Shown piece by piece: positions 3,360-58,165 of a DNA stretch of 64,000 nt. This DNA comes from Isoetes taiwanensis (taxonomy: Eukaryota > Streptophyta > Lycopodiopsida > Isoetales > Isoetaceae). The number at the start of each line of letters is the position of its first letter. Position 1 is the first letter of the stretch. The stretch spans positions 13,279,156 through 13,343,155 of the forward strand of contig JAJEKV010000039.1 of NCBI GenBank assembly GCA_021234155.1, in the 5' to 3' direction. The notes under the pieces were generated by a model. The model did no database searches. It was not told where the DNA came from and saw only the letters and a program-made list of their open reading frames with translations. Both the position numbers and the translations under genes were made by a program.

Positions 3360-3395
3360 AACGTGGAAGACAGAGAGGTGCGATTCAGCAGTCCA

Positions 3396-26739: not shown

Positions 26740-27628
26740 CTTTAGCTTTGCTACCCAATGATGGAGAGTGCTGATAGCCATAGTCAGATCTAGTTTGATA
26801 TTGCCCTGCTGTCTTTCCTTTGAATGTAGCTGTTTCTGCCCTGGAGTTACTGGTGCCTCTTCCAAACTCAAGGCCTTATCCTCAGCCTCCCCGACTGTCC
26901 TTGGGTTGATTGCCCGAACAACCTCTTAATGTTGCTGTTCAGCCCTTCAATGTATCCATCCACTGCTTGCCTTTCCGTGATTCTAGGTACATTGAATCTC
27001 AGCCTCATGAATTCTTCGGTGTACTTGGCTACGGATAAGTTGCCCTAATCCAGTCTGTAAAACTGCTGTATCTGCCTGCTTGTTTGGGATCTCGGCACGT
27101 AGTGCTTGCAGAACGCCTTGCTGAAAGTCCTGAACTTGCAATTGTTTCTTCTCAGCTTGTTGGACTTTGCGTATCCTTTCCACCATATTCTGGCTGGCCC
27201 TATCAAGTTTGCCGTTGCCCCTTTATCTATGTCCTTATCTTTCATTCCATAAGAGTTTTTGAATTCTTCCATCTCATCAAGCCATGCTTCTGCCTCCATT
27301 CCTGACCTGTCCTTGCCCGAGAACTGTTCCAGCTTTCTTGTCGTCCAAACATTGCTCATTGCACTGTCTACCTTCTTTTGGTAGTCATCTACTTTTCTAT
27401 TCTTGTTTCTGCCCTGTGATGTGTCTGACTCACTGTCGGGGCTACTGCCGGATCCACTGTCTGAGGTCTCCGATCTGCTAGAACTGGAAGGTGATGGACT
27501 CCTCCTGCCTCTTCCTTTTCTTTTTCTGTCTTTCTCGGCAACCTGATTTTCTTCCCTTTCCGGCTGGGGAGCTTCGTCAATACCTCCCACAGGCGGTGGA
27601 GGTGGTGGTGGAGGTCCATACTCTTGAG
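26740..27628 (-). pseudogene. Element B gag, main part
   Basis: A 181-codon open frame (27590-27045) and its frameshifted continuation hold a retrotransposon gag domain: a Pro-rich start (YGPPPPPPPPVGG), an RS/SD-rich basic linker, DDYQKKVDSAMSNVWTTRKLEQFSG, EAWLDEMEEFKNSYGMKDKD, ARIWWKGYAKSNKLR, and FSKAFCKHYVP. Then, after a stop (TAG near 27046), YTEEFMRLRFNVPRITERQAVDGYIEGLNSNIKRL. The WW/W motifs and the KYTEEF-type helix are typical of gypsy gag. The tail (EAEDKALSLEE, QGQYQTRS) matches the tail of element A's gag before breaking off. The N-terminal part lies beyond the element A insertion, at 49820-50030. Confidence 0.8.
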
Positions 27629-27633
27629 CATGC
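27629..27633. repeat. Target-site duplication CATGC, left copy (element A)
   Basis: Matches 49815-49819 exactly. A 5-bp duplication is the usual size for gypsy integrases. Confidence 0.9.
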
Positions 27634-29206
27634 TGTGACGTCCCCTACTCGTATACGGTGCACACACCGTATACAAACATGAGTTCTTCCCCCATACCAG
27701 CTCCATGCCGATACAGGGCCCTCCACATGACACTGCAACCGCGAAGGGTTCCAGTGGGAAGAGTGAAGGGGTCATTTTACCCCGTCTCCCTCAGGGCCTA
27801 CCTAGCTGCGGAAGCGTACATATACATGTCAGTATATAAGAGCATCACATATCCACCTCTAGGGTGGTACATCACATCTGCATGAACAATGATCAGCACA
27901 ATGCATATGGGAAATCCTACCCAAGGCTCAGACTCAGGGATGGACTGACAAGCTTGGGTCTCCAGAGTTCGTTGCAGACATAATTCATGGCAATGGATTT
28001 GGCTGGCATAAGAACATGGCATTGGGTTGTCCACTCCATCCGCCCCTCCTGTGCACACCTTGCGGAGTAGGCTGAAAAGTGTTGGGACCTGACTGTAGCC
28101 CGCCGAATGCATAGCCAAAAGGGCTACTCCTGGGTTTCATCTCCCCAGTTCCGATGGGGCAGGTAGGGATCCTCCCTCCAGATATCTACATGCTGACTCA
28201 AGGTGACTAGAGGGCCACTGCCCCTATTCAACTGAACCCACTGGAAAGTCATGAACACCACTTCACGGGTGTCGAGCCCATGCCTTACCCACACTCAGTG
28301 GTAAGCCATTAGACCTAGTCACAATGATCCTCGGTAGGCCTTACACACCAGAGGGATCGTTCAAGAGTCAGGACACGAATCTCCTTCTTAGCCAGTCTGG
28401 CCCCTTCACCCACAACCAGGTGTGGTTCTTGTACACAGGCCGAATCTATAGTGTGCTAGAGGGCTAAACTAGGAGCATCCACTACCAAGCTTTAGGTCTC
28501 TGCCCCCCTTCCCAATACAAGGAGTTCATAGAGATACATCATCCGCATACATCACAGAAGAACTAAAGAACTAGATCTAATCTATATCATGGAGTTAGGT
28601 TCTTTAGTTAGTGTTTGGGATCTAGAGATCTAGGTAGCTGCTATGGGCAATTTAATAGGCTAAGCCTACTGATTCTATGATTGGAAGACGGTTTAAGCTA
28701 TTAAATTGACTAAATACCTGATCCTTGGGTGGCTCCTCCTAACCTAAGTTCAACCATCCTGCTGAGCTGATCGAATCAAGGGAAGCTAATGGTGCGATTC
28801 GCTTGGGCAGAGTCTGGGAGGCGGTTTTGGCTCCTGGGGCAGCCAAAACAGAGCTCTAAACCCCTATGGACGAAACTAGCAAGTTAGGGTTTTCCTACCA
28901 TAAATAGACGTGGGGTTAGGGCTAGGGTTTCCAATTACCCCTTTTAGCATGTGGGATAATTGGAAAGGGCCCACTTGCCTTTAATGGCTAGGTGGCAAAA
29001 TGTGCCCACATGGAAAGGTGTGCCCACATTAATGTGCACATTGGTAAATGTGCACATTAATAATAAATGCACATACCTAGCAAGTTGCCCCCTAGGGCTA
29101 CCCACCTGGCTACACATCGGCGTACACGTCAGTCGGAGTGGCGTGTACGCGTGACGAGGCAGTACAGTATACGTCCTGGGACCGTATACTGTGCTGGAAC
29201 ATCACA
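27634..29206 (-). repeat. Element A 3' LTR, 1573 bp
   Basis: Begins TGTGACGTCC and ends GAACATCACA on plus, so the ends are short inverted repeats of each other, as in LTRs. It is repeated almost unchanged at 48237-49814; by eye the copies differ by a few percent plus a short indel at the inner end. A TATA-like word lies near 27832. Small frames present in both LTRs are shared only because the LTRs are copies. Confidence 0.92.
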
Positions 29207-30080: not shown

Positions 30081-32506
30081 TTAATCTACACAATTCGACA
30101 TGCCTGCGCCGATTTCTTCGGAGATGACCTTGCCATCCCATTGCTCCATAAACTGTGGGTACTGCTTTACTAAATCTTTCTTAAGTACCCATGTCGCGTC
30201 TTCCACTGGCAAGTGTTTCCACTTGACCAAATATTGGAGTCCTCGTTTTCTTGAAAGCTTTATCAAGAATCAATTCTGGAACTATTTCCAGCTGCTCCTC
30301 CGTCATTTCCAACAACGTTGGAGTGTCCAAGACTTCGTCTGGGTTTGGAGTGTGCTTCTTCAACAAACTCACGTGGAAGACCTTATGAATCTTTAGGTGT
30401 GCTGGCAGATCTAACTTGTAGGATTGATTACCTACTCTCTTTTCTATTCTGAAGGGTCCAGCCCACCTTGGAGCAAGCTTCTTGCAATTCCCGATCCTGA
30501 GCTTCGCCTGCTTTACCTTGATCTTCAACCAAACATGGTCGTCAACTTGGAACTCTCTAACTGTTCGATGCTTGTCGGCAATGCTCTTCTGACGACTCCT
30601 TGCCGCTAGGAGATATCCTCGAACTTCTTCCACCAGCTGCTGCATATCGGTCAACATCTGCTGCGAAACTTCCACTTTTGATACGGGATTGTGCCAGGTG
30701 TCTGGAGTTAGGCATTGATAGCCGTAATTGATCATAAACGGCGACATTTGGGACGATTCCTGCTTGGTGTTATTATATGCAAACTCCACCAAGTGAATAA
30801 ATTCTTCCCACATACCTTGCTTATTCCAGACATAGTTTCGTAGCATGTCCTCCAAAATCCTGTTGGTCCGCTCCATTTGGCCATCCGTCTGAGGATGATA
30901 TGCCGTGCTCATGGATAGCTTCGTCTGAATTGTCGCAAAGAGGTCTTGCCAAAAGGCGCTCATGAATTTCGGATCCCTGTCGGAGATAATCTCCCTTGGC
31001 ATGCCATGAAGCCTGAAGATCTCTTTGGTGAAGAGCTTCGCTGTATCCATAGCCGTATCTGTGGTCCTGCAAGGCACAAAGTGTGCCATCTTCAACAACT
31101 TGTCGACCACTACCATCAAGGCATCTTTCCTTCTTACTATCCTTGGAAGCCCTGTGATGAAATCCATGCTGATCACCTCCCACTTAGCGTTTGGCACCGC
31201 TAATGGCTCTAATGCCCCTGGAATTCGAAGCTGCTCCGCCTTTGTCTGCTGGCATAGCTGACATTCTCTGATGTAGCGAGCTACCTGCTTCTTCATTCCT
31301 GGCCAATAATAGCTGCTGCGTACTTTGAAATATGTTTTCATGAATCCCGCATGGCCAGCTATTGGGCTGTTGTGCGTGTCATGGAGGATCAATTTCCTTA
31401 CACCTGATGATTCGGGCACGCACAAATTGTTCTTATGGTATAACAGGTTGCCTTCCTTCTTATAATGTTTAAAGGCTTCCCGCTCTTTATCTGTTCTTGC
31501 CTCCCTAGAGAGGCTTGCCCATACTTCCTTGAAATCCACATCCGTTGGCAAGGACTCCTCAATCTTCTTACCAAAGTCGCTGGAGAGCGTCGAAATTGCA
31601 TTACAATGCACTCTAGTTGTCAGGGGATGCTTTGAAAGCGGATCTGCTACTACATTGAGTTTCCCTGGCTTGTAGACTATATCAAAGTCATATTCTTCCA
31701 GGAACTCCATCCACCTTCTCTGCCTCAGATTGAGGTGTGGTTGCGTGAATACATACTGGAGGCTCTGATGATCTGTATCCAATTGGAACTTCCTTCCCAA
31801 AAGGTAATGCCTCCAAATTCTTAATGCCCTGACAACCGCAAGCAATTCCTGATCATGCGTGGGGTAGCGCGTTTCGGCGTCGTTCATCTTCCTGGAATCG
31901 TACGCTACCACACGCTCTTCTTGCATGAGGACTGCGCCTGTAGCTATCTTACTCGCATCTGTTGCTACAAGCTTATCTTTCTCTAGGTCCGACAGGGTTA
32001 GGACTGGGGCGGTTGTTAAAGCTTCCTTCAATAATTCAAACCCCGCTTGGGCTTTCTTGTGCCAATGCTCCGCCCAATCTTTTACCTTTTTCACCCTCGT
32101 CAAATTTGTTAGCGGGGCCGCTATCTTAGCAAAGTTCTTCACGAACTTCCTGTAGTACCCTACTAGCCCGAGAAAACTTCTGACCTCATGCACATTTTTC
32201 GGCGCCGGCCACTGAATTACTGCTTCAATCTTGGCGGGATCCATCGAGATTCCTTCTGCTGAGATCACATGACCAAGGTATTCCATCTTCTCCGTCGCGA
32301 AGTGGCACTTTGACAACTTGGCGTACAACTGGTGCCTCTTCAACTTCTCCAGCACTCTTCTTAAGTGTTGCACGTGCTCTTCAAGGGATCTGCTATACAC
32401 CAAAATGTCATCAAAGAAAACTATCACAAAGGTGTCTAGGAACTCCCTGAAGATATCGTTCATGAGCCTCATGAACGTTGCTGGGGCGTTTGATAAGCCA
32501 AAAGGC
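30081..32506 (-). CDS. pol: Element A pol, 3' part: RT end, RNase H, integrase, chromodomain
   Basis: The long frame starts at [12 protein letters not shown] (RT) with the catalytic FFDD at residues 31-34. RNase H follows ([14 protein letters not shown], Asp184; DTDHQSL near 245; NVVADPLSK). The integrase has its HHCC zinc finger (H379, H385, C416, C419) and the catalytic triad D449 (SMDFITGLP), D510 (IISDRDPKF) and E546 (DGQMERTNR), and the [18 protein letters not shown] barrel lies near 690-715. The frame then slips near 30250, and the other frame gives a chromodomain ([23 protein letters not shown]). An integrase with a C-terminal chromodomain marks the chromovirus branch of Ty3/gypsy. In known chromoviruses this domain guides integration to particular chromatin. 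The upstream half of RT lies beyond the inserted element, at 41.5 kb. Confidence 0.93.
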
Positions 32507-33599
32507 ACACTGACCCCAATTTTTGGTCCACAGTTGTTTTTTCCTTGTACGGAAGTGTTGTTTTATGCCAAAAACAACACCAAAATGGCCCAAAAAGTCC
32601 ACGTGGCCCGTTTATCCGGATTTGCACAAAGAGACAGTGGTTTTTTGGCAAAAAATCCCACAGTGGTTTTTCTCACACTTTTTTGTTTTTTTTGTCAACG
32701 TGTCCTTTTTTTCAGTGTTGTTTTTACCGAACTTTTTCGACGTGTAGTTTTTTTTCTTGACTGCTGTTTTTTTGAAGAGCCACATGTTGTTTTTCATTAA
32801 AATAAGACACGTAGATTTAAATATTGCTATACGTGAAAGACTAACTTACAACAATGGTTTTTAAAAAAACCACATGTTATTTACAAAAGAACGACATGTG
32901 TTATTGAAATCTATCTATTGTTTTTAGTGCTATAAAGTATTGTTCTTCTAAAATAAGGACATGTAAAAGAGCATTATAATAATATATAGGAAATTCAAGG
33001 TGTTGTTTCTAATTACCTTTTAGCTAATAAAATATTGACACGTAGTATACTTTTTAAATTAAAAAAAACTTATTTTAACTAATCAAATATCGACACGTGG
33101 CATACATTTTTAAATAAAAAATTATTATTATGACATGTAGAAAAAATATTAATGTTTCTAACATATCTTCGAACCAATCAAATATTGCCACATGGCATAC
33201 ATTCAAATAATAATATATACCACAATTTAAAAATCAATATGATTGTATTTAAAATAAGAAAGCTTGTAGGAATCTAGTGGATCATTAAGTCTAAGTGCTT
33301 CTTTGATAAATCATTATATGCAAATAAATACATGCCATTAAAACCATTGGAGGGAAAAGATGGAAGTACATAATATACTGACTGTCGAGAATTGGAAAAG
33401 AGAAATACTGATAAAAAATTGTAGACTAAAACCATGAAGTTGATATTTTTTTTCGTAAAGGCAATTGCCTACTCATACAATGCAGACTGCAACTAGTCTG
33501 AGATTATATACAAATGAATCAGCAGATCATCTTGCCGAGTTCCAACTGTAAGCTTGAAGCTTGAGCAAGATATAAAGTATTACATTTATTTTCATATAA

Positions 33600-38315: not shown

Positions 38316-38327
38316 AGAATCTTGCCC

Positions 38328-41205: not shown

Positions 41206-41451
41206 AATAGAATTATTAGACGGTAGAAATTCAAGTATTCTTTCCTACAAAGGATTGTATTATAAAATGACATGTCACAATAGAAGAAACTACAAAACAA
41301 CAGTGGATGTTTTAGTCCACTGAAAAAAGAACACCATTATCGAACAAAACCATACCTCCACAAATCCACATGTAGGATTCTTTGAAAACAGGACATGTAG
41401 ACCTACCAAAACTGATGTTTTCAACAGTGGACCAAAAACCGGGGTGAGTGT

Positions 41452-42000
41452 GAGGCATTACCGTGAATTCATAGTGCCCATACCGCGTTCTGAAAGCGGT
41501 TTTATGAATATCTTCTTCCTTTATCCGAATTTGGTGATAGCCCGACCTTAAGTCGATTTTGGAGAAGACCTTTGCACCTTGGAGTTGATCCATCAAGTCA
41601 TCTGATCTTGGGAGCGCATACTTGTTCTTAATGGTGTGCTTGTTCAACTGCCTATAGTCTATGCACATCCTTAAACTGCCATCCTTCTTCTTTACAAAGA
41701 TAATGGGTGCTCCAAATGGCGAGACGCTAGGTCTAATGAAGCCTAGGTCGAGCAACTCCTGCAATTGCTTCTTTAGCTCCGTCAACTCCTCAAGGCCGTC
41801 ATTACGTATGGAGCCTTGCTTGTCGGCTTTGCTTCGCCTGAAAAGCTATCTCACACTCGACTCCCCTATAAGGAGGGAGCTGCTTGATCTCATCCGGGAA
41901 CAGCTCGTGGAACTCCGTGATCAAGTTAGCTATCTGCTTAAGCAACTTAATTGTTGAGCACTTTATCTTCTTCACTTTCTTCTAATTCCGGCTCTTCAAT
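41452..42000 (-). pseudogene. pol: Element A pol, 5' part of RT
   Basis: Frame from about 41785: [95 protein letters not shown]. These are RT motifs 1-4, including the catalytic Asp in KIDLRSGY. It breaks off exactly where the inverted-repeat element starts and continues at 32506. Upstream frameshifts (about 41800-41960) separate it from protease. Confidence 0.9.
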
Positions 42001-42580
42001 CTCAAGCTTGAAGATGTATGCCATCTGCTCGCTCTTGATGCACTTGAACAGCCGTTTAGAAGACGCATAATCGCATGATGGGAACAACTTCTTTACCCGC
42101 GATCTCGATGATCTTGCCGCCGGTGTTGGGAAGGTCACCTTCCGCTTCCACAATCAATAATGGCCCCTCGCTGGTCCAAGGTACTCCATTCCTATGATCA
42201 AGTCGTATTTGCCAATGCCCATTACTTCTTGCCCCATCCGATATTAATCCCCGGCAAGTCGATGTCGGTTAATTCTCTTGCCTCGCCCTACCTTCTCGCT
42301 CCACTTGCTAAGACAATGGGCCTTGGTTTTGACTTTAGTGGTTTCAACTTCAACATTTGAACCATTCCGGGGATGCAAAGTTATGGCTACTTCCCGAGTC
42401 TATCGTGACTATGAAGGACTTGGTTTTGGCCTTCCCCACGTGGAAATTACTTTATACTCGCTCTCTGCTTGCTCAGATCTATTGCGGCAAAGATATGACA
42501 CTCACCCCAATGTAGTCGAACTAACTTCTTGCCGCCGCCGCCGACGTAGTGTCCCAATCTCCCAACTCGCTTAGCGCCGC
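42001..42580 (-). pseudogene. Element A protease region
   Basis: SFIVTIDSGSSHNFASPEWF reads on minus, with the aspartic protease triad Asp-Ser-Gly at 42392-42400. The rest of the domain is split by frameshifts. Confidence 0.7.
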
Positions 42581-43740
42581 ACTCACGTATGGGCAGCCAC
42601 CCTGCCCTATGGCCTGGCCGAAGCACCAACCAAAACCGCTTATGCACTCCTATCTCTTTTCCTTGGGCATAGCCTGCAAAAAGGATCGCACTGCTTTGGA
42701 GTAGTTTGACCCCTCCTGCTTGTCCTTGAAGGACACTTGCTTTTTCTCCTGCTGCTTCCCTTGGTTGCCACCATATGGGGCTCTAGCTGGGCCTGGGCTT
42801 GCTGCCCTAGGGCTATAACTCCCTGTTGCCTTACCTTTATCCTGGTAATACTGCTACCTCTGCCTGCTATTGTGAGGTCCTGTTCCTTGCAAGCTTATTG
42901 CCTTGGACTCTGCTTCTGATACTGTCTTAGGATTTATTGCCCTTACAAGCTTGCGGATCTCCTCATTCAGGCCCTCGATGTAGCTCTCCACTGCATGCTT
43001 CTCACCCAATTTGGGCACATCTGACCCTCGGACCTCATGAATTCCCTCAGATGCTTAAGATCGATTTGTTGCCTTGTCGCTTTTGCCGTAGAATTGCTTT
43101 GCATCATCTTTGGACTTATGCTCTCTCGGGACATAATGGCGCTTGAAGGCTTTAGCGAACTTCCTGAACCTGCAAGCATCCCTGCTTAAGCCATGGGCCT
43201 TGGCATAACCCTTCCACCAAATCGTCTTTGCACCCGAGGTTAGCCATTTGCTACCACGCCTTTATCCTTATCCTTCATACCATACAGCGTTGCCGTATTC
43301 ACTCATCTCGTCGAGCCAAGCCTCCCTCCATGCACGACGCATTTCCGCTCGAGAATTTGCTCGAGCTTCCTGGCCTTCCAAACATTTCCCAATGCAGAGT
43401 CTACCTTCTTCTGGTAGTCAGAGGCTCTTGTGTCCCTTTGTCGTCCATTTGTGGTATCCCTCTGCCTTCCATGTGTAGTGACCCTCTGCCTTCCATCTAT
43501 ACGGTCTTGGGCCTGGTCTTCCTCTTCCTCGGAGTCGGAGTCTGAATCCGAGCTTGAGTCGGAGGATTCCAGCTGGAGGACCTCCTTCTCTTGCTCCTCT
43601 TCTTGTCTCTTCCTGTTTTTTGAGCTGATGCTTGCGGCAACTGAGCATTGCCCACCAACCCGGGCCGCTTGGCTGCCAGCAAAAGCCTTTATCTACCCAG
43701 TCCGGCCTCATCTCTGATGGATATTTCCTCTTCAAGGGTT
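42581..43740 (-). pseudogene. gag: Element A gag with degenerate zinc knuckle
   Basis: In alternating frames, minus translation matches element B's gag: DYQKKVDSALGNVWKARKLEQ, YGMKDKDK, and KHLREFMRSEGQMCPNW. The tail (INPKTVSEAESKA) follows, then a Gly/Pro-rich stretch and a broken CCHC-like knuckle (GWCFGQ...GGCP, 42590-42640). At least four frameshifts. Gag would form the virus-like particle of the element. Confidence 0.75.
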
Positions 43741-44025
43741 ATGGGTCCAAATTCCTCGAGCAGTTTCCTTGCCTGGGTGGCCTCATGCGGACTCTGTTCT
43801 TCCATATGTTCTCGGCGTTGTCATTCCCCTGGGCCTAGGCCTCTAGCTGCATACACAAGTAGTTCATGGCTATATGGTTAGTTTTACTTGTTCTCTTGCA
43901 TTATTTATGTTTGTTGGTATAGCTGGGGACACAAAATACATCAACAAAACATTTAAAGTGCAAAAGAAATTATATTTATATGATATCATATCCTAATACA
44001 AAAACCCCCGGGATCAAGAATCTAA

Positions 44026-44990
44026 CTATTCTTGGAATCGCCGGTATGATGGGTTATCCTCTAGGAACTTCTTCACTTGGGCTGTTCCCACTGAATGACC
44101 CAAGTTCCTAAGGACATTGATTGAAGATCCCCCCTGCAAAGCTCTCGCCAATTCTTCTATCCTGCGCTCGGAGGTATAGGCTGCAGTCACTGCCAGTCTT
44201 CCCTGCCGTCTGTAAGGTATGGCAAAGTAAAAAACATCGAGTGCTATCTCTCTCTTCACCAGGATGGCATACTCGGTGTTTGGAGCTAACCGAGCATGCC
44301 GGCCAAAGCCTGAGAGTGCAATTAGCATCGATGCTCCTTCCTCGCCCCTGGGGGTGAATTTGCGGTGAATTACCGCTATTCTTCCATCCATCAGCAGGGG
44401 AAGGTAATACCGCCGCGACACGTGCTGCGTGCCAATCCTCGTCTCGGCCCTCCCTCCAAATCTGCCCGCGCATAGTCATCAACCTCCACCGTGGTGAGCT
44501 CTCTGTAGTCTCTGACTGTTGCTGAAGCTCTCCTGAGGTCGAACTCGCCTCTTCTCTCCCGGGGAGGCGTTGCAAGAGCTTGCCGTTAAGATGTTCGAGG
44601 GTCGCGGGCGGATCCCCATCTGTTCTGTAGAGCAAGGGAACTCTTCCTCCGTCCGGTAGTTTGTTCAAGGGCCTTGTCTACCTCCATAATCCGCATGATG
44701 TTCGGCTTGATATCTGAGGTCGACTCTCCCGCGTGTAAGTGTCGGCTTCCCCTTACTTGGAGTGGGAAGTCGGAGGTTCCTCGGACGATGAAGTCGCCCG
44801 TGTCTGTTCTCTCGGGAGTAGGTGCAGCAATGTTCGTGGTCGATACTCCCTTTCCTGCACTCCTGGGAGTTTTGGATGTAAACTTAGGAGCAAAAATTCT
44901 TCGCCCTCGACAATGATGGGGCTAGGCTTGTGATGCCTAGCCCAAGGGTGGCGCGATCCTAAGAGTCTCGCCGCTTCTTTCAAGTCTTGC
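44026..44990 (-). pseudogene. Element A ORF3, unrecognised, conserved in element B
   Basis: Two frames make one protein. The first part (44990-44753) has SPIIVEGEEFLLLSL; the second (44421-44026) has YYLPLLMDGRIAVIHRKFTPRGEEGASMLIALSGFGRHARL, AYTSERRIEELARALQGGSSINVLRNLG and a basic C-terminus. Element B encodes the same blocks (VIEGEEYIL; FSPRGEE..LLIALSGFGQH; ARALERGSFRNILRNVG) at 50.2-51.3 kb. Conservation of protein motifs between two diverged elements shows selection in the past. I know no family for it. It sits between ORF2 and gag, where gypsy elements normally have nothing. Confidence 0.6.
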
Positions 44991-44999
44991 CACTCTTGT

Positions 45000-45593
45000 T
45001 CTGCTTGCCGCTGCTCTTCCGCTGGGTCGAGCTCGACGTAGTCTTCATCCTCTTCTTCTGACTCCTCGTCTTCTTCTTTTCCTTCTTGCTCCCCTCAGAT
45101 CGTGCGAAGGAGTTGTTTATCTTCGCTGGCTGGCTAATGGGTCCACGTCCATGGGTGGGATGGAGGTTTCTCCCATGGGGTTCTCGGCACGATGGGTGAG
45201 GAAAATGGCTAAGGCAGTGTTGAAAGAGAAGTACTTGGTCCTGTTGACAGTCAGGACCATTGGCTCGGGCGTGCGCTGGGCCTTGTTTGTGAGGTACTTG
45301 GCAATGTTTGGGACATCGCCTAAGGCTGCTTGAAGGGCTTGCCTGGGGACATAGTAACCTATGCAAGGTGGGAGCTGCACTAAAGAATGTCCTACCCTAG
45401 CTTGGAACTCGGACAGGACTCGGCTATATGCTGGGGTTGCGTGCAAGGTTGCTTGGACATCTATCTCCTTCCGGAAGACCCAGAAAATTTCATCGGCGTC
45501 AGCCTCGGCAGCATGAGCGCTGGCGCTGTCCCATCGCCTGAAATCAGAGGTTGCCATGAGTTTAATGAGGAAGAGAGTAGCAAACGGTTGCAA
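45000..45593 (-). CDS. Element A ORF2, unrecognised, conserved in element B
   Basis: The 158-codon frame (45593-45117) contains DVQATLHATPAYSRVLSEFQ, a YYVPRQALQAALGD block, RTKYFSFNTALAIFLTHRA, and GETSIPPMDVDPL. Element B's ORF2 shares the spaced motifs (DLHATL..TP.Y, ..LSQALGE, RYVSAHAALALFMQY, GEPSIQPLDLAPL). A Lys/Ser-rich tail in another frame (SKKEKKKTRSQKKR..., 45110-44980) probably belongs to it after a frameshift, and then runs on towards ORF3, so ORF2-ORF3 may have been one polyprotein. Function unknown. Confidence 0.6.
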
Positions 45594-45858
45594 GAGCGCC
45601 TCAGGGAGTTGGAAAATCGGCTAAGGGAGCAGGAGCAAACTCGTAGGGTGCTACCGACCTATTTATAGAAAAGGGGAAAACCTTAATTTTTGGGTGACTT
45701 GGAAAATTCTTGGGGTTGGGCAGTTCTAGCCTATATTGAGGTCTAAATGAGGATTGGAAGACTACTTTAAGGGTTTGAGCATGACTGGGTTACCTAAAGA
45801 TCTTAACATAACAGGTTGGAGATCATTTGGACAAGTTATGGTGGAGAAATGGTAGGAG

Positions 45859-45925
45859 GTCTCACAGGTAGCGCCTCGTTCAAAAGCTACACTTTAGTTT
45901 CTTGACCAGGCGCGACGTGTGAGAC
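45859..45925. repeat. Element A palindrome 1, 67 bp
   Basis: Ends GTCTCACAGGTAGCGCCT / AGGCGCGACGTGTGAGAC pair, with an inner AAACTAAAGTTTAGTTT-type dyad. It lies downstream of the H3-like ORF (in element sense), between it and ORF2. Confidence 0.92.
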
Positions 45926-46058
45926 ATCAGTCCCATTTTGATCAAAACATGTCTAATTTGGGTAAACTAAGGGTGTAAGGGTAACATACTCATTAAATTA
46001 AGCAGAATCGACCCCTTACTTGGTCACTTTGGAGCTGTTTTGGGCAATTTTGGCCAAG

Positions 46059-46125
46059 GTCTCACAGCTAGCGCCTCGTCCAAAAACTAAAGTTTAGTTT
46101 CTTGACCAGGCGCGACCTGTGAGAC
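46059..46125. repeat. Element A palindrome 2, 67 bp
   Basis: Same sequence family as palindrome 1 and nearly perfectly self-complementary. It starts exactly 200 bp from palindrome 1. Confidence 0.92.
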
Positions 46126-46267
46126 ATCACACCTTTTGGTCTGCAAATGTCCTATTTCACTAAAACAAATACTAGAACCTGCTAATTTGTCCTAATTAAA
46201 CAAGTTCAGACACATAAAGTACTCAAAATTGATTATATTACAAAATTTTTGATTATTTACAAGATGT

Positions 46268-47562
46268 TTATCTGGGATCTTTCTTAATTAAACTAGCTAA
46301 TTGCATGTCTTTCCTCATGAGGGTTACTCGCTTCGCATGAACAGTGCAAGCTGTCGAGTCTTCAAAATGTTGCACTATCCTCTGCTCAGCCGCTTCCTGC
46401 AGTGCCAGCAGCATCTCATCTGTGACCCTCATGTCGGTCCTAAAATCCTGCATTACTTCTCGGACCAAACGAGCAAAGGGGGCACGGGGGATTAGGAGGC
46501 CGTAGCTGCGCTGGAAGTGCCTAATCAGTGCTCTTCTCTCCACCTCCTTCCTGTCGACTTTCTTCTTGGCTGGCTTCTTGGGGGCCTTGGGCTTTGGTGG
46601 TGGCGGCTTTAAGGTCTGCTGTTTCGTTGGGCGTCCTCCCTCGATAAACCTGACCTTGTTCTCCTCATAGTACTTGTTGTACGCCTCCCACTCCTTCATG
46701 TATGCATCGTGCTCCCTCTTCTTCCTCTCATAGATCTTGACACGGTCCGTGACGTAGGCCTCTTGGGCAGGCCGTGGTTGCTTCTTCCTGTCCCACTTCG
46801 GATAAGGAGGGGGCTTCTGCACTTGGTCCTGCTGTTCCGGGTCGGGCTGCTCTTGATTAGGTGTTGGCTGCTCGTCACCCGGGAACTTCGAAGAACTTCC
46901 ACCTCCGGTGTTGGGGATGTAGTCTTCGTCGGAGGAGTCGTCGGAGGGGTTCGGGGGCTGGTCGGCTGGCCGCTCGTTGATGACGACCTTGGGGTTGGGC
47001 TTCCTTCTTGGTGGAACGTCCTTGAGCTTCCTTGGGCCCTCCACGAATTTCCCCTTTGCCTTCTTCTTCTCCTGGGCCGCTTTCGCCTCTTCTTCCCTCT
47101 TCCTCTTCCTGCTTTCCCGGCGCCGTTGTTTCTTCTCGTGTTTTGCAATCCATGCCGCGAGGTCTTTTTCTTCGCTTGGGTCGATCCTTGGCCCGCTGTG
47201 CTCTTGCCGCTCCTTTGTCCTCCTTTCCCGATGTGCTTCCTCCTCTTCGTCTTCGAGGACCTCTGTTGCTGCATCAGAGTGGTCCTCTTTCCCTTCCTGC
47301 TCTTGAATTTCCCGCTCTATCTCCTCGTAGACTTCCCTTGTCTCCTCGTCCATGGAGGTTGGTGATGAGGCCTCGCCTTGATCCACCTAACGATTGAAAA
47401 CGCCAATCGCATCGGATGTATCTTGATCTTCCTGATGTCCTCCTCGCTCGGCTTAACGACCCCCTCGCGAGCCTCTCCACGGCATCCCCGACAAGGTTGG
47501 CGTCAGGGCGCCGGTGGCTTCGCCGGACGAGGGCTTCCCCGGCACCGCTTGGTCCGTGCCAT
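46268..47562 (-). CDS. Element A ORF1: histone H3-derived protein
   Basis: An open frame of 372 codons (47386-46268; first ATG at 47353) ends in a histone H3 fold, residues 282-372. RALIRHFQRSYGLLIPRAPFARLVRE matches the H3 alpha-N region and start of helix 1. MQDFRTDMRVTDEMLLALQEAAE matches loop 1 and helix 2, with loop 1 of canonical H3 length rather than the longer CENH3 type. HFEDSTACTVHAKRVTLMRKDMQLASLI matches the end of helix 2, loop 2 and helix 3. Residues 1-280 are acidic/basic low-complexity (E/K/R/P/Q-rich, with KKXKRRESRKRKR-type nuclear signals). Upstream, at 47562, a second frame starts MARTKRCRGSP, the H3 tail start as in element B; a frameshift or lost intron separates it from the main frame. 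Palindrome pairs flank it. Expected role, by inference: nucleosome-like packaging or chromatin targeting of the element. Confidence 0.88.
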
Positions 47563-47770
47563 GTTTGACGGCTCGTCGATCGGATATCAGCCAAAAAGAT
47601 CGCCTAAGTGGGAGAGCCGGATTTCTAGGGCGGAACGCAAAATGAGTGGGGGGTCTACATCTATTTATAGCTTGGGGAATTTTAGGTCAAAATCTAAGTT
47701 GCTCTATTTAACGTGCCAAGGCACTTATTTACTTAAAACATACACTTATTTCAGAGATTTTTAATTATTG

Positions 47771-47837
47771 GTCTCACAGGTAGCGCCTCGTTCAAAAACT
47801 AGAGTTTAGTTTTTAGACCAGGCGCGACGTGTGAGAT
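47771..47837. repeat. Element A palindrome 3, 67 bp
   Basis: Third copy of the GTCTCACA...GCGCCT palindrome, on the 5' side of the H3-like ORF. One end base differs (GTGAGAT). Confidence 0.9.
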
Positions 47838-47962
47838 CTTACACATTTGTAACTAGTTTAAGTGATTTAAACATACTATTCTAACTGATTCTTACCTTGG
47901 AACTCGCCTTACCATATTACTTTGGTGAAATTATCAAGATTTAAGGTTTTTCTTGGCTCAAT

Positions 47963-48029
47963 GTCTCACAGGTAGCGCCTCATCCAAAAACTAAAATGCA
48001 GTTCTTTGACCAGGCGCGAGCTGTGAGAC
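47963..48029. repeat. Element A palindrome 4, 67 bp
   Basis: Fourth copy, 192 bp from palindrome 3. It lies between the primer-binding site and ORF1, i.e. in the transcript leader. Confidence 0.9.
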
Positions 48030-48224
48030 CACCTTGCCTGGGGAGTGTTTGGCTCATTCTTTTTAGTCTTATTAAGTTCCAGTTCACTTAATTGTTACTA
48101 GCTTAGCATAAACTACAAAAATGAGAAAAAAAAAATTTTCCCACTTTTCGAGGCTTGAGGATCCTATCAAGTTAGTACTACTGGGAGCATGGTCAGTGCT
48201 TTGCTCTTGGTCTCCAAGAACATT

Positions 48225-48235: not shown

Positions 48236-48236
48236 C

Positions 48237-49814
48237 CGTGGCGATCGCCTACTACTGTGATACGGGTGCACACACCGTATACAAACAGAGTTCTTCCCCC
48301 CCATACCAGCTCCATGCCGACATGAGGGGCCCTCCACATGACACTGCAACCGCGACGGGTTCCAGTGGGAAGAGTGAAGGGGTCATTTTACCCCGTCTCC
48401 CTCAGGGCCTACCTAGCTGCGGAAGCGTACACATACATGTCAGTATATAAGAGCATCATATATCCACCTCTAGGGTGGTACATCACATCTGCATGAACAA
48501 TGATCAGCACAATGCATATGGGAAATCCTACCCAAGGCTCAGACTCAGGGATGGACTGACAAGCTTGGGTCTCCAGAGTTCGTTGCAGACAGAATTCATG
48601 GCAATGGATTTGGCTGGCATAAGAACATGGCATTGGGTTGTCCACTCCATCCACCCCTCCTATGCACACCTTGCGGAGTAGGCTGAAAAGTGTTGGGACC
48701 TGACTGTAGCCCGCCGGATGCATAGCCAAAAGGGCTACTCCTGGGTTTCATCTCCCCAGTTCCGATGGGGCAGGTAGGGATCCTCCCTCCAGAGATCTAC
48801 ATGCTGACTCAAGGTGACTAGAGGGCCACTGCCCCTATTCGACTGAACCCACTGGAAAGTCATGAACACCACTTCACGGGTGTTGAGCCCATGCCTTACC
48901 CACACTCAGTGGTAAGCCATTAGACCTAGTCACAATGATCCCCAGTGAGGCCCCTTACACACCGAGGGATCGCTCAAGAGTCGACACGAATCTCCTTAGC
49001 CGGGCCCTGCCCCTTCACCCACAACCAGGTGTGGTTCTTGTACACAGGCCGAATCTATAGTGTGCTAGAGGGCTAAACTAGGAGCATCTACTACCAAGCT
49101 TTAGGTCTCTACCCCCCTTCCCAATACAAGGAGTTCATAGAGATACATCATCCACATACATCACAGAAGAACTAAAGAACTAGATCTAATCTATATCATG
49201 GAGTTAGGTTCTTTAGTTAGTGTTTGGGATCTAGAGATCTAGGTAGCTGCTATGGGCAATTTAATAGGCTAAGCCTACTGATTCTATGACTGGAAGACGG
49301 TTTAAGCTATTAAATTGACTAAATACCTGATCCTTGGGTGGCTCCTCCTGACCTGAGTTCAACCATCCTGCTGAGCTGATCGAATCAAGGGAAGCTAATG
49401 GTGCGATTCGCTTGGGCAGAGTCTGGGAGACAGTTTTGGCTCATGGGCAGCCAAAACAGAGCTCTAAAACCCTATGGACGAAACTAGCAAGTTAGGGTTT
49501 TCCTACCCTAAATAGACATGGGGTTAGGGCTAGGGTTTCCAATTACCCCTTTTAGCATGTGGGATAATTGGAAAGGGCCCACTTGCCTTTAATGGCTAGG
49601 TGGCAAAATGTGCCCACATGGAAAGGTGTGCCCACATTAATGTGCACATTGGTAAATGTGCACATTAATAATAAATGCACATACCTAGCAAGTTGCCCCC
49701 TAGGGCTACCCACCTGGCTACACATCGGTGTACACGTCAGTCGGAGTGGCGTGTACGCGTGACGAGGCAGTACAGTATACGTCCTGGGACTGTATACTGT
49801 GCTGGAACGTCACA
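48237..49814 (-). repeat. Element A 5' LTR, about 1578 bp
   Basis: Nearly identical to 27634-29206. The outer end (GGAACGTCACA) is intact. The inner end (CGTGGCGATCGCCTAC) has drifted from TGTGACGTCCCCTAC, so the edge is placed by alignment and by the adjacent primer site. Confidence 0.9.
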
Positions 49815-49819
49815 CATGC
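49815..49819. repeat. Target-site duplication CATGC, right copy (element A)
   Basis: Matches 27629-27633. Confidence 0.9.
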
Positions 49820-50030
49820 ATTAGTGGTATTGCCCACTGTAGTAGTTGCTGCATCTGATTCCTCATCTGGGCCAATCTTGCATTCATTGTTTTGACTGTC
49901 ATGTCTTGTTCGTCGTCGTGTTCCCGGCCGAACAAATTCCTAGGTTGCCACTGGTGCTGCCGGCCTTGGCCTTGAGACCCTGACCCGGTGTTCCTGGCTG
50001 CAAGTATTGGTCATCAATGTTGTTACTTAG
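49820..50030 (-). pseudogene. gag: Element B gag, N-terminal part
   Basis: Open minus frame with ARNTGSGSQGQGRQHQWQPRN, then a segment with the helical MNARLAQMRNQMQQLLQWA. It runs without a stop into the CATGC duplication and continues beyond element A at 27628. Confidence 0.75.
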
Positions 50031-50223
50031 GTTATGCATTATTCAACCTTATTTACAAGTCAATTATTGTTAGGTATGAAAGAAATCATGTTCAAATTCC
50101 AACTTATAAGTTAAAGACAATTTGTGACAATTAGAGTTATACATTACATAGGGTATATGATAGTACATAGAACTGAGGACATTTTTATACATTTTAGAAG
50201 ATAAGTTTGAAAGCAGAAAGTGT

Positions 50224-51306
50224 TCATCTTCGAGAATTCTTGACGTCCCTAAGTCGAAGGCCTTTGCCGACATTGCGCAAGATATTCCTAAAAGATCCAC
50301 GTTCGAGGGCTCGAGCCATTTGAGGTGCAGGGAGTTCGGATGCCGTTGCCGCAATTACCATCAATGGTGCGTCTCTCAAGTGGCCCCTGGCGAAGTCGAG
50401 GCAGTGGAGTACCACGGACAAGGGGGGTTCACAGTTTTGCATGCACGGGAAGGGGATTTTTTGGACCCATTTTCGTACATATACGGTCGGCAGGGGGTCC
50501 CTTTTCTGGTATTTTTTGCACTATTCTAGGTAATTTTTATTCGAAAGGGGTCAAATTTTGCTTTTAAAGATCCGTATATAGGGGGGTTTTTTGCCACCCC
50601 ATGCACGCAGATGGCATATCCCCCTTATACATGAGTGAATCCCCCTTGACCACGGATCTCTTGAAGAGAATGATATGATCCGTGTGGCTGCTCAGCTTGA
50701 CGTGCTGTCCGAAGCCCGAGAGTGCTATGAGGAGCGCCACAGACTCCTCCCCTCGCGGGCTGAACTCCTTGTGAAAAACTATCATCTGCCCTGGCTGAGG
50801 ACTGGAAGGTAGTACCGGAGTGCCTTACCCTTTCCTATGGTCTTCGAACCTGTGCCCTTTCTTTGAGCTGCTTCGCCGTAGATGTCTAATGCCAAGAGGT
50901 CTTCATGGTCTCTCCACATGGTGGTTGCGCTTTCCAGGTTGATGCTACTGGATGCCTCCTGCATGCTCCTTGATCGAACCGTTTGGCTAGAGCTTGGGCC
51001 CCTCCCTGGTTTGTATAACCTGCTTTGGATCTCCTAAACTTCTTCCTCTGGAATGATCGGCTGTTGTTGACGATACATCTCCCTTATGTGCTCGTAGGCG
51101 GCGATGTCTGACATCGTCTCACCGGCGTAGGAGTGCCTTTTTGCTACTTCACTTGGGACCTCCTGATAAGAGTAGTCGATGAAGTCACTCTGCTGCTCTT
51201 TTGCAATCAAGCCTAGGAGCTCATCGATTCTAAGCCCTTCTTCTTGGCAGTATGGAAGGTTGAGGGTATCATTTGCCAAAATATACTCCTCCCCTTCGAT
51301 TACCAT
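50224..51306 (-). pseudogene. Element B ORF3, unrecognised, conserved in element A
   Basis: Frames 51306-51034 (MVIEGEEYILANDTLNLPYC, IDELLGLIAKEQQ), 50785-50564 (IVFHKEFSPRGEESVALLIALSGFGQHVKLSSHTDHI) and 50442-50224 (LPAPQMARALERGSFRNILRNVGKG) are collinear with ORF3 of element A. Between the last two, a stretch rich in GGGG/CCCC and TTTT runs (50450-50620) looks like inserted or scrambled sequence. Function unknown. Confidence 0.55.
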
Positions 51307-51505
51307 CGGTGATAGAGCTGTGATGCCGATTGGTGGTTCATTGGCCCGCCTTATGACTTATGTCATCATCGTGCCTTGCTATGCACCTCTCCATTCTTGT
51401 CGCCTCTCTGCTCTCCCAACCTGGGTTTTCTTCCCCTAGCTGCTCGTAATCCTGCTCAATTTGGAATGCCCCTATTCTTGTGCCATGGTACTCGTACTTC
51501 GCAGA

Positions 51506-52006
51506 CTAGATCTCATGTATCTGGCCTTGCTCCATTCTTGTGTTGAGTGGCGCTAGGTCCAAGGGCTGGATCGAGGGCTCCCCCACCTTGTTGACTGCCT
51601 TGTACTGCATGAATAAAGCGAGGGCCGCATGCGCCGAAACATACCTGTGCCTATGGGCTCTACAAGTCATGTAATCGTCCCTTTCCTTTCCCATTGCTGC
51701 CCCTTCCTCTGGATCCCCCTCCCCTAAGGCTTGGCTCAACGAATCTAAAGATACCCACTTGCCTCCCCTTGGTAGAAGGCTAACTTCCCAGGGTAAGATC
51801 TGCTGGTCATATTGGCAAACTATGTCAGTGTAGTAGGGGGTCCTAGTCAGGGTTGCATGCAAGTCAAAGAGATGGTCAAAGACATGGAAGGCCATCATGG
51901 ATGTGGCTGGCACTGTCGTACCATCAAACAAAATTGGTGGGCGCCATTGAGCAGAGGTGGGTGTAAAAGATGGCTTGGAAGAACTGATGAGAGCTTGGTA
52001 AATCAC
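51506..52006 (-). CDS. Element B ORF2, unrecognised, conserved in element A
   Basis: A 166-codon frame, open throughout. It shares with ORF2 of element A the blocks DLHATLTRTPYYTDIV, WVSLDSLSQALGEGDPE, HRYVSAHAALALFMQY and VGEPSIQPLDLAPL, in the same order and spacing, while most other residues differ. This is the clearest sign that ORF2 is a real protein of this element family. The middle has a PWEVSLLPRGGKWV segment. No transmembrane segment and no catalytic motif known to me. Confidence 0.65.
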   Translation of the reverse strand: MIYQALISSSKPSFTPTSAQWRPPILFDGTTVPATSMMAFHVFDHLFDLHATLTRTPYYTDIVCQYDQQILPWEVSLLPRGGKWVSLDSLSQALGEGDPEEGAAMGKERDDYMTCRAHRHRYVSAHAALALFMQYKAVNKVGEPSIQPLDLAPLNTRMEQGQIHEI

Positions 52007-52246
52007 CTAAGATGGTGAGAGCAATTTAGGTGAAGGGAAAATGGCTAATGAGGCTCCCTTTTATAGACTAGGGTTGCCTCGGCTTCCGTGCACAAGGGTT
52101 CTTGATAGAACAGACCTTTGTTCTAAGCTTATGGATCTCCAAATAAGGTACCATGAAGTGCAAATCTAAGCAAAACGAGGCAAGAAACACTACATGGCAG
52201 TTTGTTGGGTCAAATTTGGATAATCCTGGTCAAAATGGGTCAACTC

Positions 52247-52309
52247 GAGTGGGTTCGCGCGAAAGGGGTCTGCGTCGCGAACGCAGAGGCGTTTGGCGCG
52301 GACTCACCC
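52247..52309. repeat. Element B palindrome 1, 63 bp
   Basis: GAGTGGGTTCGCGCGAAA pairs with the end GTTTGGCGCGGACTCACCC, and the inner CTGCGTCGCGAACGCAG forms a second stem. Confidence 0.9.
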
Positions 52310-52447
52310 GGTTGGGCCGATTTCTAAGAAAACTAAACTTTTCTAGGGGTTGTAAGATGCTAACATGCCTATTTGGATCAATTCTAACCTAGTTAGCAAC
52401 TTACTTCATGGTAATTGGACATCTAGAAGTGTTATTTCAAGGCAACT

Positions 52448-52510
52448 AGGTGGGTTCGCGCGAAACGGGCCTAAGTCGCGAACGCAGAGGCGTTTGGCGC
52501 GGACTCACCC
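52448..52510. repeat. Element B palindrome 2, 63 bp
   Basis: Same family, 201 bp from palindrome 1. Confidence 0.9.
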
Positions 52511-52647
52511 AGTTCAGCCGATTTTTGCTACTTTTGGATGTTTTTGACCAAAATTAACTTCTAAACTAGATTCCTAGGCAGATTCTAAGCATTTTACTAT
52601 CTTTTTTCACAAAATTTGGACCAATTTGCCCCAAATTGAGGATACTC

Positions 52648-52710
52648 GGGTGGGTTCGCGCGAAACGGGCCTGCGTCGCGAACGCAGAGGCGTTTGGCGT
52701 GGACTCACCC
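52648..52710. repeat. Element B palindrome 3, 63 bp
   Basis: Same family, exactly 200 bp from palindrome 2. The surrounding 200-bp spacers are not similar to one another apart from a short CCGATTT/CCAATTT word after each palindrome. Confidence 0.9.
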
Positions 52711-52946
52711 GGGTCGGCCAATTTGAGCCAAATTTGGATTCTTATGCTAAAATTTTATGCTAATTAGACAATTCTAAGCATTCTAATTATGATACAAGGA
52801 ATTATACTCACAATTGATTCATACAAGAGTACTATTATATCAAAGAAGAGGTTTAATTTACAGAGAAAATTGACTTTTATAACTAGTAATTAGAATATAC
52901 AGGGGAAAAACTTATATATTTATAAGGTTTACAAAATTGGAGGTGT

Positions 52947-54106
52947 TTAGGGCCTCTCTTTACGGATCCTCCTCGCCAGATGCAGGTCCTTCGATATCAC
53001 CGTCACCCGCTTGACGTGGATTGCGCAGAGGTTGCCTTCCTCGAAGAGCTGGACCAGCTCTGCCTCTGATGCCTCCTGCAGGGCCCGGACCATCAAGGGT
53101 GTCACTCTGTAGTTTGTCCTGAACTCCTGCATAATCTCCCGAAGGAGCCGCTCGAACGACGCCTTCTTGATGAGGAGATTATTGCACTGTTGGAAGTGCA
53201 TAATCTCCCGAAAAACTCGGGCATGCCTTGAATTAGGTCCATGGTGGACCTTCTTCGGCGGCTCCGGTCTTGGTGGTAGCGGCTTGGGCTGGTTCTTCGT
53301 CTGCCCACCCTTAACGTACTTTTGTACGTTTTGCTTGCAGTACCAATCATTGTACCTCTTCCACCGGCGGAGGTTTGGTACACCTTTTTACGACGCTGGA
53401 ATTCATGATCTTGTTTTAACATGAATTCCCACTCGCCCACCTTCTGCTTCTTTATCACCTTCGGTGGCTTGGGCCACTTCGGGTATGGTGGGCGAGCATC
53501 TGGGTTTGAGGGTTCCTCAGCATCTCCTTCGGGCTCTTCTTCCGTATGCCCGGCTGCTTCACTCTCCTTCTCTTCCTCTTCTTCCTCCTCCTCATCGGTG
53601 GGGTCCTGACGAGGTTCTTCAATATGGACCGTCCCCCTTGGACGGTCCTGGTCCCTTTTGGACCTCTTCTCCCTCCTTCTTGCTTCTTTCTCCCTCTCCC
53701 TCTTCTTTCTCGTGGCCCTCTCCTCTGGCCATTCAGTCACCTTCTCCTTGCCTTTCTTCTTTTTGGAGGTGCCAACCTCCTCCTGGTGTGGCTACTGCTG
53801 CTGCTGCTCTTGTTGTTGCTGTTGCTCTTGGTCCTGCTGCGGCTGCTGGTGCTCTTGCTCCTCCTCCTGATCGGACAGAGGACCGAAGTGGATGGTCTCG
53901 TCCATCCGCTGCGTCTCCACGGAGGAGCTGCTCTGGGCCTCCTCCTGGGAGGCGTGGAAGGTCTCGTCCGTAGAGCTGGACGGCTCCTCCTCCCTTCTCG
54001 GCCGAAGATGCTCGGGGATCTTCTTCCCTGGACCTGCTGCTGCTTCTGCCATTGAGGGTGTGCGCCTTGGGCTAAACTTCCTTGCAGTGCATTTGGTCCT
54101 CGCCAT
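52947..54106 (-). pseudogene. Element B ORF1: histone H3-derived protein with the H3 tail
   Basis: The ATG at 54106 opens MARTKCTARKFSPRRTP, the histone H3 N-terminal tail with A1-R2-T3-K4, T6-A7-R8-K9 kept (Q5 is Cys, S10 is Phe). A long Glu/Gln/Lys/Ser-rich insertion follows, with one in-frame TAG near 53790 (in a CAG run) and a frameshift between about 53370 and 53210. The frame then gives the H3 fold, from [33 protein letters not shown] (53215-53130) through [45 protein letters not shown] to the stop at 52947. The fold is very close to ordinary H3 (FExxNLCAIHxKRVTxxxKDxxLARRIRxER) and lacks the longer CENH3 loop 1. Position (5' of ORF2, gag) is the same as in element A. The capture is certain; a packaging or targeting role is inference. 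Confidence 0.9.
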
Positions 54107-54634
54107 ATCTTAAGGTTAACCAAACTGATTACGTTAAGCTGATTAACAAGGAAGAGGGGTTTAGGCAAGGTTAGAGGGAAAATGGGGTGGCAAGAAGATA
54201 TTTAAAAGGGAAGATGCTCTAGGGAATATTCTCCTGCTATTAATAGCTCTACTAATTAGCCCCCCTTATTAATTATCTCAGTATACCTATTTGTTAGTAT
54301 ATGGTTAATGCTGTATTATACTATAATTTTCGAATTTTTCCTAATGGTTTGAAGTGTTAATTATGAATTTGCGCCATTTTTTACCCGGGTCTCGGATTGG
54401 CATGATTCTTCGACCCATTTTGGGTGAAATCTGATGCTAATGCATAATTTCCACTCCAACTTTACTAGAATGTTAATTTGACTCATTCGTTTCTCCCCAT
54501 TTGACAACTTAGTCTATTCTTACGGGCCCACTACCTAGGAGAAAAAATTTTCCCCTATTTTCGAGGCTATTAGGCCTGTTAGACTACTTACTAGGGACAT
54601 GGTCAGTGCTAGTTCCTGGTCAACCAAGAACATC
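54107..54634 (-). other. Leader of element B, no gene
   Basis: AT-rich untranslated sequence between the primer site and ORF1. A stretch at 54539-54634 (GGAGAAAAAATTTTC...ATGGTCAGTGCT) closely matches element A's leader at 48120-48215, so the two elements share their 5' leader sequence. Confidence 0.6.
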
Positions 54635-54646
54635 GCTCTGATACCA
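54635..54646 (-). promoter_or_regulatory. Primer-binding site of element B (initiator Met-tRNA)
   Basis: TGGTATCAGAGC on minus is the exact 12-base complement of the plant initiator Met-tRNA 3' end, the common primer of gypsy and copia elements. Confidence 0.85.
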
Positions 54647-54950
54647 CCCTACAAAATATACGGCGCCCGACCGTACACTCCGTAGGAAATCCCCCATCCG
54701 GTCCTTCTGTGACGTTCCACGTATTTATACGCCTTTTTGAGTATAAATACATGCATGACACGTCATTATGAATAACTAGTAATGCCCGGCGTTCTTTGTC
54801 GGTCAGAAAGTTATCAACGAACAATGAGAAGAGAGGTCATAATAACTGTGGTGTAAAACCGTTATTGACATCTAATTACATATTCAAGAGGTAGTACATC
54901 GTTACTCATAAGTCATTTCAACATGAAACTTACACACTGAAGATGTAGTA
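54647..54950 (-). repeat. Element B 5' LTR, inner part
   Basis: Begins next to the primer site. CCCTACAAAATATACGGCGC resembles the inner end of element A's LTR (CCCTACTCGTATACGGTGC), and later words (TCCCCCATCCGGTCC) also align. The outer end is not identified; similarity fades after about 54950, so the LTR is truncated or too diverged. Confidence 0.5.
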
Positions 54951-55009
54951 CACCGTTACCAGTCTAAAGGGGCTACAAATTATTGCAATCAAAGACAATG
55001 ATTGATTAA

Positions 55010-55459: not shown

Positions 55460-55948
55460 CCACATCAGCTAATTTATTATATATTGCACTAAAATCATAG
55501 CTTGACCTGCAAAACAATATTAGCTTAACCAATATGTTGTAGACGCAGCAGACGAAATGCACAAACAATCTAGAAAGATTAAATCACAGCATAAAAGATG
55601 AGCAAAGCTATGGCATCATGCAAACACAAAATGTTGTATCATAAATGACATGCATACAAAAAGAAAGCACAACTTTAAAGAAGCTTACAAAAAGCATTTC
55701 TAAAACCCATTCTATTTCACCCTATAGGAAATTTGGGTGACACAGAATTAGAAAGAGTAGCGGATTGGGAATGCCATTATTGCAAAAAGCCATCATCACG
55801 AAAAGCCATCCATGTAACTACTTATATTTTTATTATATGATTTGCTTCAATGAGAGCAGTCTAATGATACCACTTACAATAAAGTTGATTCTTATATTTT
55901 ATCATATAGGTACTGGAAGAACTTGCAGAACTTGCCATAACCTTGCAC

Positions 55949-55961
55949 AACATGAAAAACA
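55949..55961. repeat. LINE target-site duplication, left copy (AACATGAAAAACA)
   Basis: A 13-base match to 59092-59104. Confidence 0.85.
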
Positions 55962-58150: not shown

Positions 58151-58165
58151 CGTAGATGGTCCCAA

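Follow-up and report, generated by a model that had tools for sequence, protein, structure and literature searches.

In the genome of Isoetes taiwanensis, a gene derived from histone H3 belongs to the regular make-up of many copies of one Ty3 chromovirus lineage. In the window, the whole stretch of 64,000 nt that was analysed, two such elements (A and B) are nested one within the other, and each has an H3-fold gene before ORF2 and gag.

Two nested chromoviruses with H3-fold genes

The minus strand of element B from 54106 to 52947 starts MARTKCTARKFSPRRTP, continues in a long charged stretch and ends in an H3 fold, the arrangement that the initial annotation had described. The fold piece matched the Pfam Histone family (PF00125) with E = 1e-24 and H3 chains in the PDB with a best E of 4.6e-26, which is far beyond chance. 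The tail is nearly canonical, with C at position 5 (ARTKCTARK). The single open reading frame of the initial annotation is not there: a TAG interrupts it after about 104 codons, and there is a change of frame near 53330–53390. The gene does follow the element's own primer-binding site and stands upstream of gag, as had been claimed, with the gag pieces now displaced beyond an insertion (Table 1). We take the primer site TGGTATCAGAGC to be that of initiator Met tRNA.

The insertion is element A (27634–49814), the younger of the two, which entered element B between the ORF2 pieces (51336–50239) and the gag pieces (27422–26812) of the latter. It carries a second H3 gene that had gone unmentioned. 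The element A fold matched PF00125 with E = 6.7e-26, and its best relatives in the PDB were H3 chains. Checked against the histone profile, the folds of A and B scored 91.4 and 87.6 bits, both above the cut-off of 26.4; both window copies are frame-damaged.

The LTRs of element A are 96.5% identical over 1571 columns. Since this LTR pair and a 5-bp target-site duplication enclose the H3 gene, the gene has been carried in real transposition. The minus-strand order of element A is H3, ORF2, gag, protease, reverse transcriptase (RT), RNase H and integrase, with RT interrupted by approximately 8.8 kb of other sequence, and its own primer site is degraded. Between its LTRs the element codes for gag, RT and integrase, which rules out a DNA-virus histone. 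Within the RT interruption, 35966–40067 is a long degenerate repeat array in both orientations. Upstream of element B, frames at 55910–58972 resemble a non-LTR retrotransposon by eye.

Table 1 Features of elements A and B in the window.
Feature	Position	Strand	Evidence
Element A H3-like gene (opens with MARTK at 47562 and then shifts frame; the fold lies in an open frame of 372 aa, 46268–47386)	46268..47562	-	
Element A 5' LTR, start TGTGACG	48252..49814 (48252 is the aligned limit)	-	LTR alignment
Element A 3' LTR, end ACGTCACA	27634..29206	-	LTR alignment
Element A 5' target-site duplication (GCATG)	49815..49819	-	
Element A 3' target-site duplication (GCATG)	27629..27633	-	
Element A pair of 67-nt hairpins upstream of H3, spacing 192 nt	47769..48032	-	
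Element A pair of 67-nt hairpins downstream of H3, spacing 200 nt	45854..46129	-	
Element A ORF2, broken	44029..45557	-	
Element A gag, protease, first part of RT	41321..43877	-	
Element A rest of RT, RNase H, integrase, chromodomain region	30084..32508	-	
Element B primer-binding site	54635..54646	-	
Element B H3-like gene (H3 fold preceded by ARTKCTARK tail and charged insert)	52947..54106	-	Reading, Pfam, PDB
Element B strong hairpins (three), spaced by about 200 nt, lying between H3 and ORF2	52241..52724 (copies begin 52241, 52443, 52644)	-	
Element B ORF2 pieces, 31–54% identical to A-type ORF2	50239..51336	-	
Element B gag pieces, 49–64% identical to A-type gag, beyond inserted element A	26812..27422	-	

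Recurrence of the H3 gene in A-type elements

A protein search of the host genome with the element A H3 gave at least 134 matches (110 scored of 24,160 first-look candidates). The sample comprised 20 long loci with up to about 8 kb of downstream sequence (L009–L028) and 20 shorter loci. All were picked by H3 similarity, and copies with the same pol without H3 fall outside the sample; it therefore does not follow that every copy of the lineage carries H3.

The H3 reading frame of the 20 long loci was 371–486 aa, with an in-frame MARTK-type start in 12 and none in eight. Downstream of it we found ORF2 in 19 loci, gag in 15, protease in 14, RT in 12, RNase H in 11, integrase in 10 and a chromodomain in eight; seven had the full set from gag to integrase in order together with the chromodomain, and parts absent from the others may be decayed, interrupted or past the 10-kb limit. 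Pfam identified the Ty3 domains of L025, including the chromodomain (E = 1.1e-9). The primer site was exact in 18 of the 20 loci; of the other two, one had a single mismatch and one gave no match. Where the primer site and the ATG were both identified (15 loci), they were 660–696 nt apart.

This recurrence at a fixed place in 20 A-type loci rules out a one-off H3 insertion, the outcome that the initial annotation had set against a gene of the family. The copies that speak against it are A-type rather than B copies, however, and were all found through H3. With the purifying selection and the related lineage C described below, the proposal that H3 is a gene of a retrotransposon family is supported. 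At L006, two A-type H3 folds (1507–1794 and 3185–3475) lie about 1.7 kb apart, which suggests a tandem or nested copy.

ORF2, which lies between H3 and gag and encodes a protein of some 510 aa, had no Pfam family above the cut-off. Its single database relative was P0138 (501 aa, 47% identical), on a 2007-bp contig. No annotated protein with the same insert appeared in a profile search with 15 copies, where the matches listed (120 of 185) covered 19–33% of the query, i.e., the fold and little more. A protein search with the fold region gave 14 matches, and the 10 inspected were CENH3-like or other long H3 proteins; in both searches candidates were limited by length and shared words. Ten ENA proteins of 384–433 aa (P0102, P0117, P0125, P0126, P0129, P0131 and P0133–P0136) have a MARTKQTARK start, in most followed by NTGGK or similar, a long insert and a terminal H3 fold, and from these sequences would seem to be a second set of H3s with a long insert. 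A viral_contigs scan with P0126 gave no relative.

Selection on the A-type fold and tail

The fold codon model covered 89 codons in 44 sequences, namely 43 A-type folds (two from L006) and the window B copy. Omega was 0.087 with the starting tree and 0.075 with the final one, and lnL was -3059.2 versus -3423.7 with omega fixed at 1, a gain of 364. The dN/dS check proposed for the fold thus returned strong purifying selection. Median pairwise dN/dS was 0.084 for the fold (43 copies), 0.079 for gag (14), 0.035 for RT (9), 0.135 for integrase (11), 0.17 for ORF2 (16–18), 0.17–0.18 for the H3 insert and 0.226 for the first 37 codons of the H3 gene (34 tails). Judged by these medians, the A-type fold is about as constrained as gag. 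The 43 folds were free of in-frame stops; such stops fell in the latter half of the insert in 13 of 44 records and in the N-terminal part of ORF2 in 10 of 18.

The tail could be compared in the 34 of 44 records whose N-terminus matched the query; the other 10, which include the window and at least one too-short stretch, reflect decay or too-short stretches. Among the 34, T3 and K4 were kept in 34, Q5 in 33, R8 and K9 in 32, and A7 and R2 in 30, and residue 10 varied freely. The ARTKQTARK segment had a pN/pS of 0.127 against 0.483 in the next 27 codons, with the lower pN in 99 of 100 resamplings. The initial annotation had suggested from K4, R8 and K9 that chromatin proteins can modify or read the tail; these residues are indeed conserved in the A-type tails that matched, but the tail is absent from the five N-termini of lineage C that were read, so being read by chromatin proteins cannot be what the tail contributes in all of these elements.

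Within the fold, H113, C110, K115, R72 and R83 were kept in 43/43 A-type copies, D123 in 42/43, and the histone-contact positions R69, R72, R83, C110, H113, K115, R116 and D123 in 41–43/43. We assume that C110, H113 and D123 form the H3–H3' interface and that R69, R72, R83, K115 and R116 are histone contacts. Other positions have changed: R63P and K56R were each present in 42/43 and E at residue 87, a chaperone site, in 43/43. Because of these substitutions and the 54 and 56% identity to host H3 of the two A-type folds compared, nucleosome assembly of the A-type protein is not assured.

A related lineage with another N-terminal region

A genome search with canonical H3 gave at least 150 matches (150 scored of 9,022 candidates), of which 15 were full-length at 96–98% identity and were taken as host genes, and 135 were at 71–86%. 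Eight of the 135 (L052–L059) were read as C-type. In L053–L056 the protein starts MA(I/N)TKSAPDP..., and its new N-terminal region of about 200 residues is followed by a charged linker and then the H3 fold. L057 and L059 diverge further from this form, and L052, L058 and L059 had no readable start. The ARTK tail was absent from all five C-type N-termini read. The C-type folds compared are 85–89% identical to host H3 (L053 and L056, 85 and 88%; L057 and L059, 88–89%). Four C-type frames scored 137–144 bits with PF00125, and E values across the B, A and C folds ranged from 1e-24 to 3e-42.

The element context of lineage C was taken from the downstream DNA of two loci. At L060, RT, RNase H, integrase and chromodomain were 83, 85, 80 and 75% identical to A-type, gag and protease had no match, and an ORF2-like frame precedes RT, its likeness being by eye since tblastn with A-type ORF2 gave no match. 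The order at L061 was ORF2-like frames (by eye), gag (64%), protease (60%), integrase (80%) and chromodomain (65%), with no match for RT and RNase H. No primer site was found in the upstream parts fetched of C-type loci.

C-type dN/dS was 0–0.039 in all 15 pairs of six copies, with dS saturated in pairs that include L057 or L059 and in host versus C pairs; the host H3 pair L049–L050 gave 0.028. On these ratios, the C fold is the most constrained of the element H3 folds. Residues 86–90 read SSAVL, SHAVL or STAVL in three host genes, and TFAIL or THAIL in seven of the eight C-type copies and LLGVL in one.

Origin of the captured H3

A and B formed one group in both trees (support 96% and 83%), and the insert is common to both by eye, while C grouped with host and canonical H3. 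The AU test accepted both a single origin of A, B and C (p = 0.24) and a grouping of C with host H3 (p = 0.17). The H3 phylogeny suggested by the initial annotation placed A with B and C near host H3, but single and separate origins both pass. Repeated capture of H3 by one lineage, if it occurred, would be a sign of strong selection for H3. Residue 77 is E in three host H3 genes, in B, in four of eight C-type copies and in the A-type loci L026, L027 and L033; it is D in Chlorella H3 and presumably also in Arabidopsis H3. This shared E is a hint, not proof, that H3 may have been captured from a related host.

Hairpins near the H3 gene

A 67-nt hairpin occurs up to four times per A-type element, twice before H3 and twice after. 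All four were present in 17 of the 20 long loci and three in the other three, after one stray match far downstream in L017 was dropped. The spacing was 184–192 nt before H3 (214 in L026 and L027) and 196–201 nt after it, near the nucleosome repeat length. RNAalifold gave a poor consensus (-3.4), and symmetric pairs were therefore counted instead in 92 distinct 67-mers (five of 97 distinct sequences had another length and were left out). Symmetric cells paired in 84.0%, compared with 81.2% in shuffles (maximum 81.9%) and 36–45% with the partner slid. Cells changed on both sides numbered 73 versus a mean of 34 in shuffles (maximum 44), counts that the kinship of the sequences inflates. The element B hairpins have another sequence at similar intervals of about 200 nt. 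A scan of two C stretches did not show the fixed-place A-type hairpins, and the element B leader did not clearly show them either; Rfam gave no family at E ≤ 0.1 in window positions 45000–55000. Possible roles for the hairpins are control of H3 synthesis, RNA packaging or nucleosome phasing.

Comparison with known systems

The nearest likeness is to DNA viruses that carry one captured H3 without other core histones, such as Manila clam xenomavirus, Dishui Lake phycodnavirus and Sylvanvirus, as given in the available part of a review (PMC9145170). In some of these H3s the tail is longer or divergent and the alpha-2 chaperone site, which the review stresses, is altered; the review argues that single viral H3s probably form nucleosomes with host histones (PMC9145170, available part). 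Here, by contrast, the carrier is a plant-integrated, multicopy LTR retrotransposon lineage, in whose H3 a charged insert separates tail from fold or the N-terminal region is new. The bracovirus histone H4 is likewise a captured core histone on a viral agent, but it is H4, not H3, and is delivered by a wasp virus, not a retroelement (PMC9145170, available part).

The elements share the Ty3 gag-pol order and the C-terminal integrase chromodomain with chromoviruses (PMC3350952, in the part available). By eye, the L025 chromodomain is without the Y24 and Y48 cage residues, as in group II of that paper; the H3 gene and ORF2 before gag differ, and neither is mentioned in its available part. Our literature search of open-licence papers found no histone-bearing retroelement. 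The word "retrotransposon" has no occurrence in the available text of the viral-histone review (PMC9145170), nor has "histone" in the available main text of the I. taiwanensis (PMC8566536) and I. sinensis (PMC10541799) genome papers. Within that literature, the initial annotation's remark that capture of H3 by an LTR retrotransposon is not described agrees with what we found, and on this limited evidence a chromovirus lineage with a histone gene appears to be new.

Possible function of the element H3

For this mobile, selected H3 gene we favor, with a probability of about 0.5, the reading that its protein pairs with host H4 and enters nucleosomes, the N-terminal part acting as a recruiting handle. 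The H3-like protein would be translated from element RNA, its fold would pair with host H4 and with H3, and it would enter nucleosomes on the new element DNA copy or on host chromatin. There the long N-terminal part (ARTKQTARK and charged insert in A and B, the other region in C) would change recruitment, which may ease expression, evade silencing or favor integration together with the integrase chromodomain. The fold and a long non-canonical N-terminus are common to A, B and C, and the integrase chromodomain is present in A and C. As C is without the tail but has the most constrained fold, a shared function most likely needs the fold, and from the sequences it would most likely be H4 pairing and nucleosome entry. 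More tentatively, the element might build chromatin of its own, with special H3 nucleosomes on its DNA and a self-recognition loop between the H3 N-terminus and the chromodomain of the same element, by which integration would be steered or copies kept expressible. On this view the hairpins flanking the A-type gene would belong to that packaging or to the controlled synthesis of H3.

Alternatively, ARTKQTARK could be a decoy or recruiter of readers and writers of H3K4 and H3K9, with the fold as a mere carrier. The A-type conservation that stops at K9 and the low pN/pS of the tail would fit such mimicry. A decoy would need no H3–H3' interface, however, and the best conserved fold is that of C, whose five N-termini read are without ARTK, so tail mimicry alone cannot be the function common to all, and we consider this explanation unlikely.

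We judge it just as doubtful that the protein is a nucleocapsid-like basic histone compacting element RNA or cDNA in the particle, with no nucleosomes formed. The position of H3 as first gene and its charged insert would suit such packaging, and whether viral H3s assemble on the viral genome is left open in the available part of the review (PMC9145170). Against this, the element has a gag, with a sub-threshold zinc-knuckle match, and the conserved residues are histone–histone contact positions.

Still less likely is a poison histone that titrates host H4 or blocks chaperones and so loosens silencing of the element. The altered chaperone site (E87 in all A-type folds, TFAIL or THAIL in most C-type copies) and the altered DNA contacts (R63P) would fit, but the close identity of C-type folds to host H3 does not, and high expression would be needed.

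A captured CENH3 by which the element aims at centromeres is improbable. Plant CENH3 N-termini start with MARTK, and CENH3 has in common with the element H3 a long divergent N-terminus and several fold residues (by eye RHFQ, LLIP and VTLMRKD in A-type); A+B with plant CENH3 was not rejected by the AU test (p = 0.81), in a tree without the host's own CENH3. On the other hand, loop 1 has the canonical H3 length by eye, the C-terminus is of the GERP type, C groups with canonical H3, and the element H3s show no clear grouping with CENH3; L009 was 51 and 56% identical to two plant CENH3s and 56% to host H3.

That H3 is a functionless hitchhiker copied along with the element is very improbable: the many broken copies, both window ones included, and the stops in the insert would suit it, but an omega near 1 was rejected, the fold is constrained about as gag is, and C-type dN/dS reaches at most 0.039.

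Transposon silencing by hosts works largely via histone H3 marks. An element-borne H3 would be a direct move in this silencing contest and a new route for a mobile element onto chromatin. As natural histone variants with the tail far from the fold, or replaced, these genes offer a way to test which parts of H3 matter. They also caution that, in a genome like this one, many sequences resembling H3 may be genes of elements, and the elements that carry H3 may shape the chromatin around themselves.
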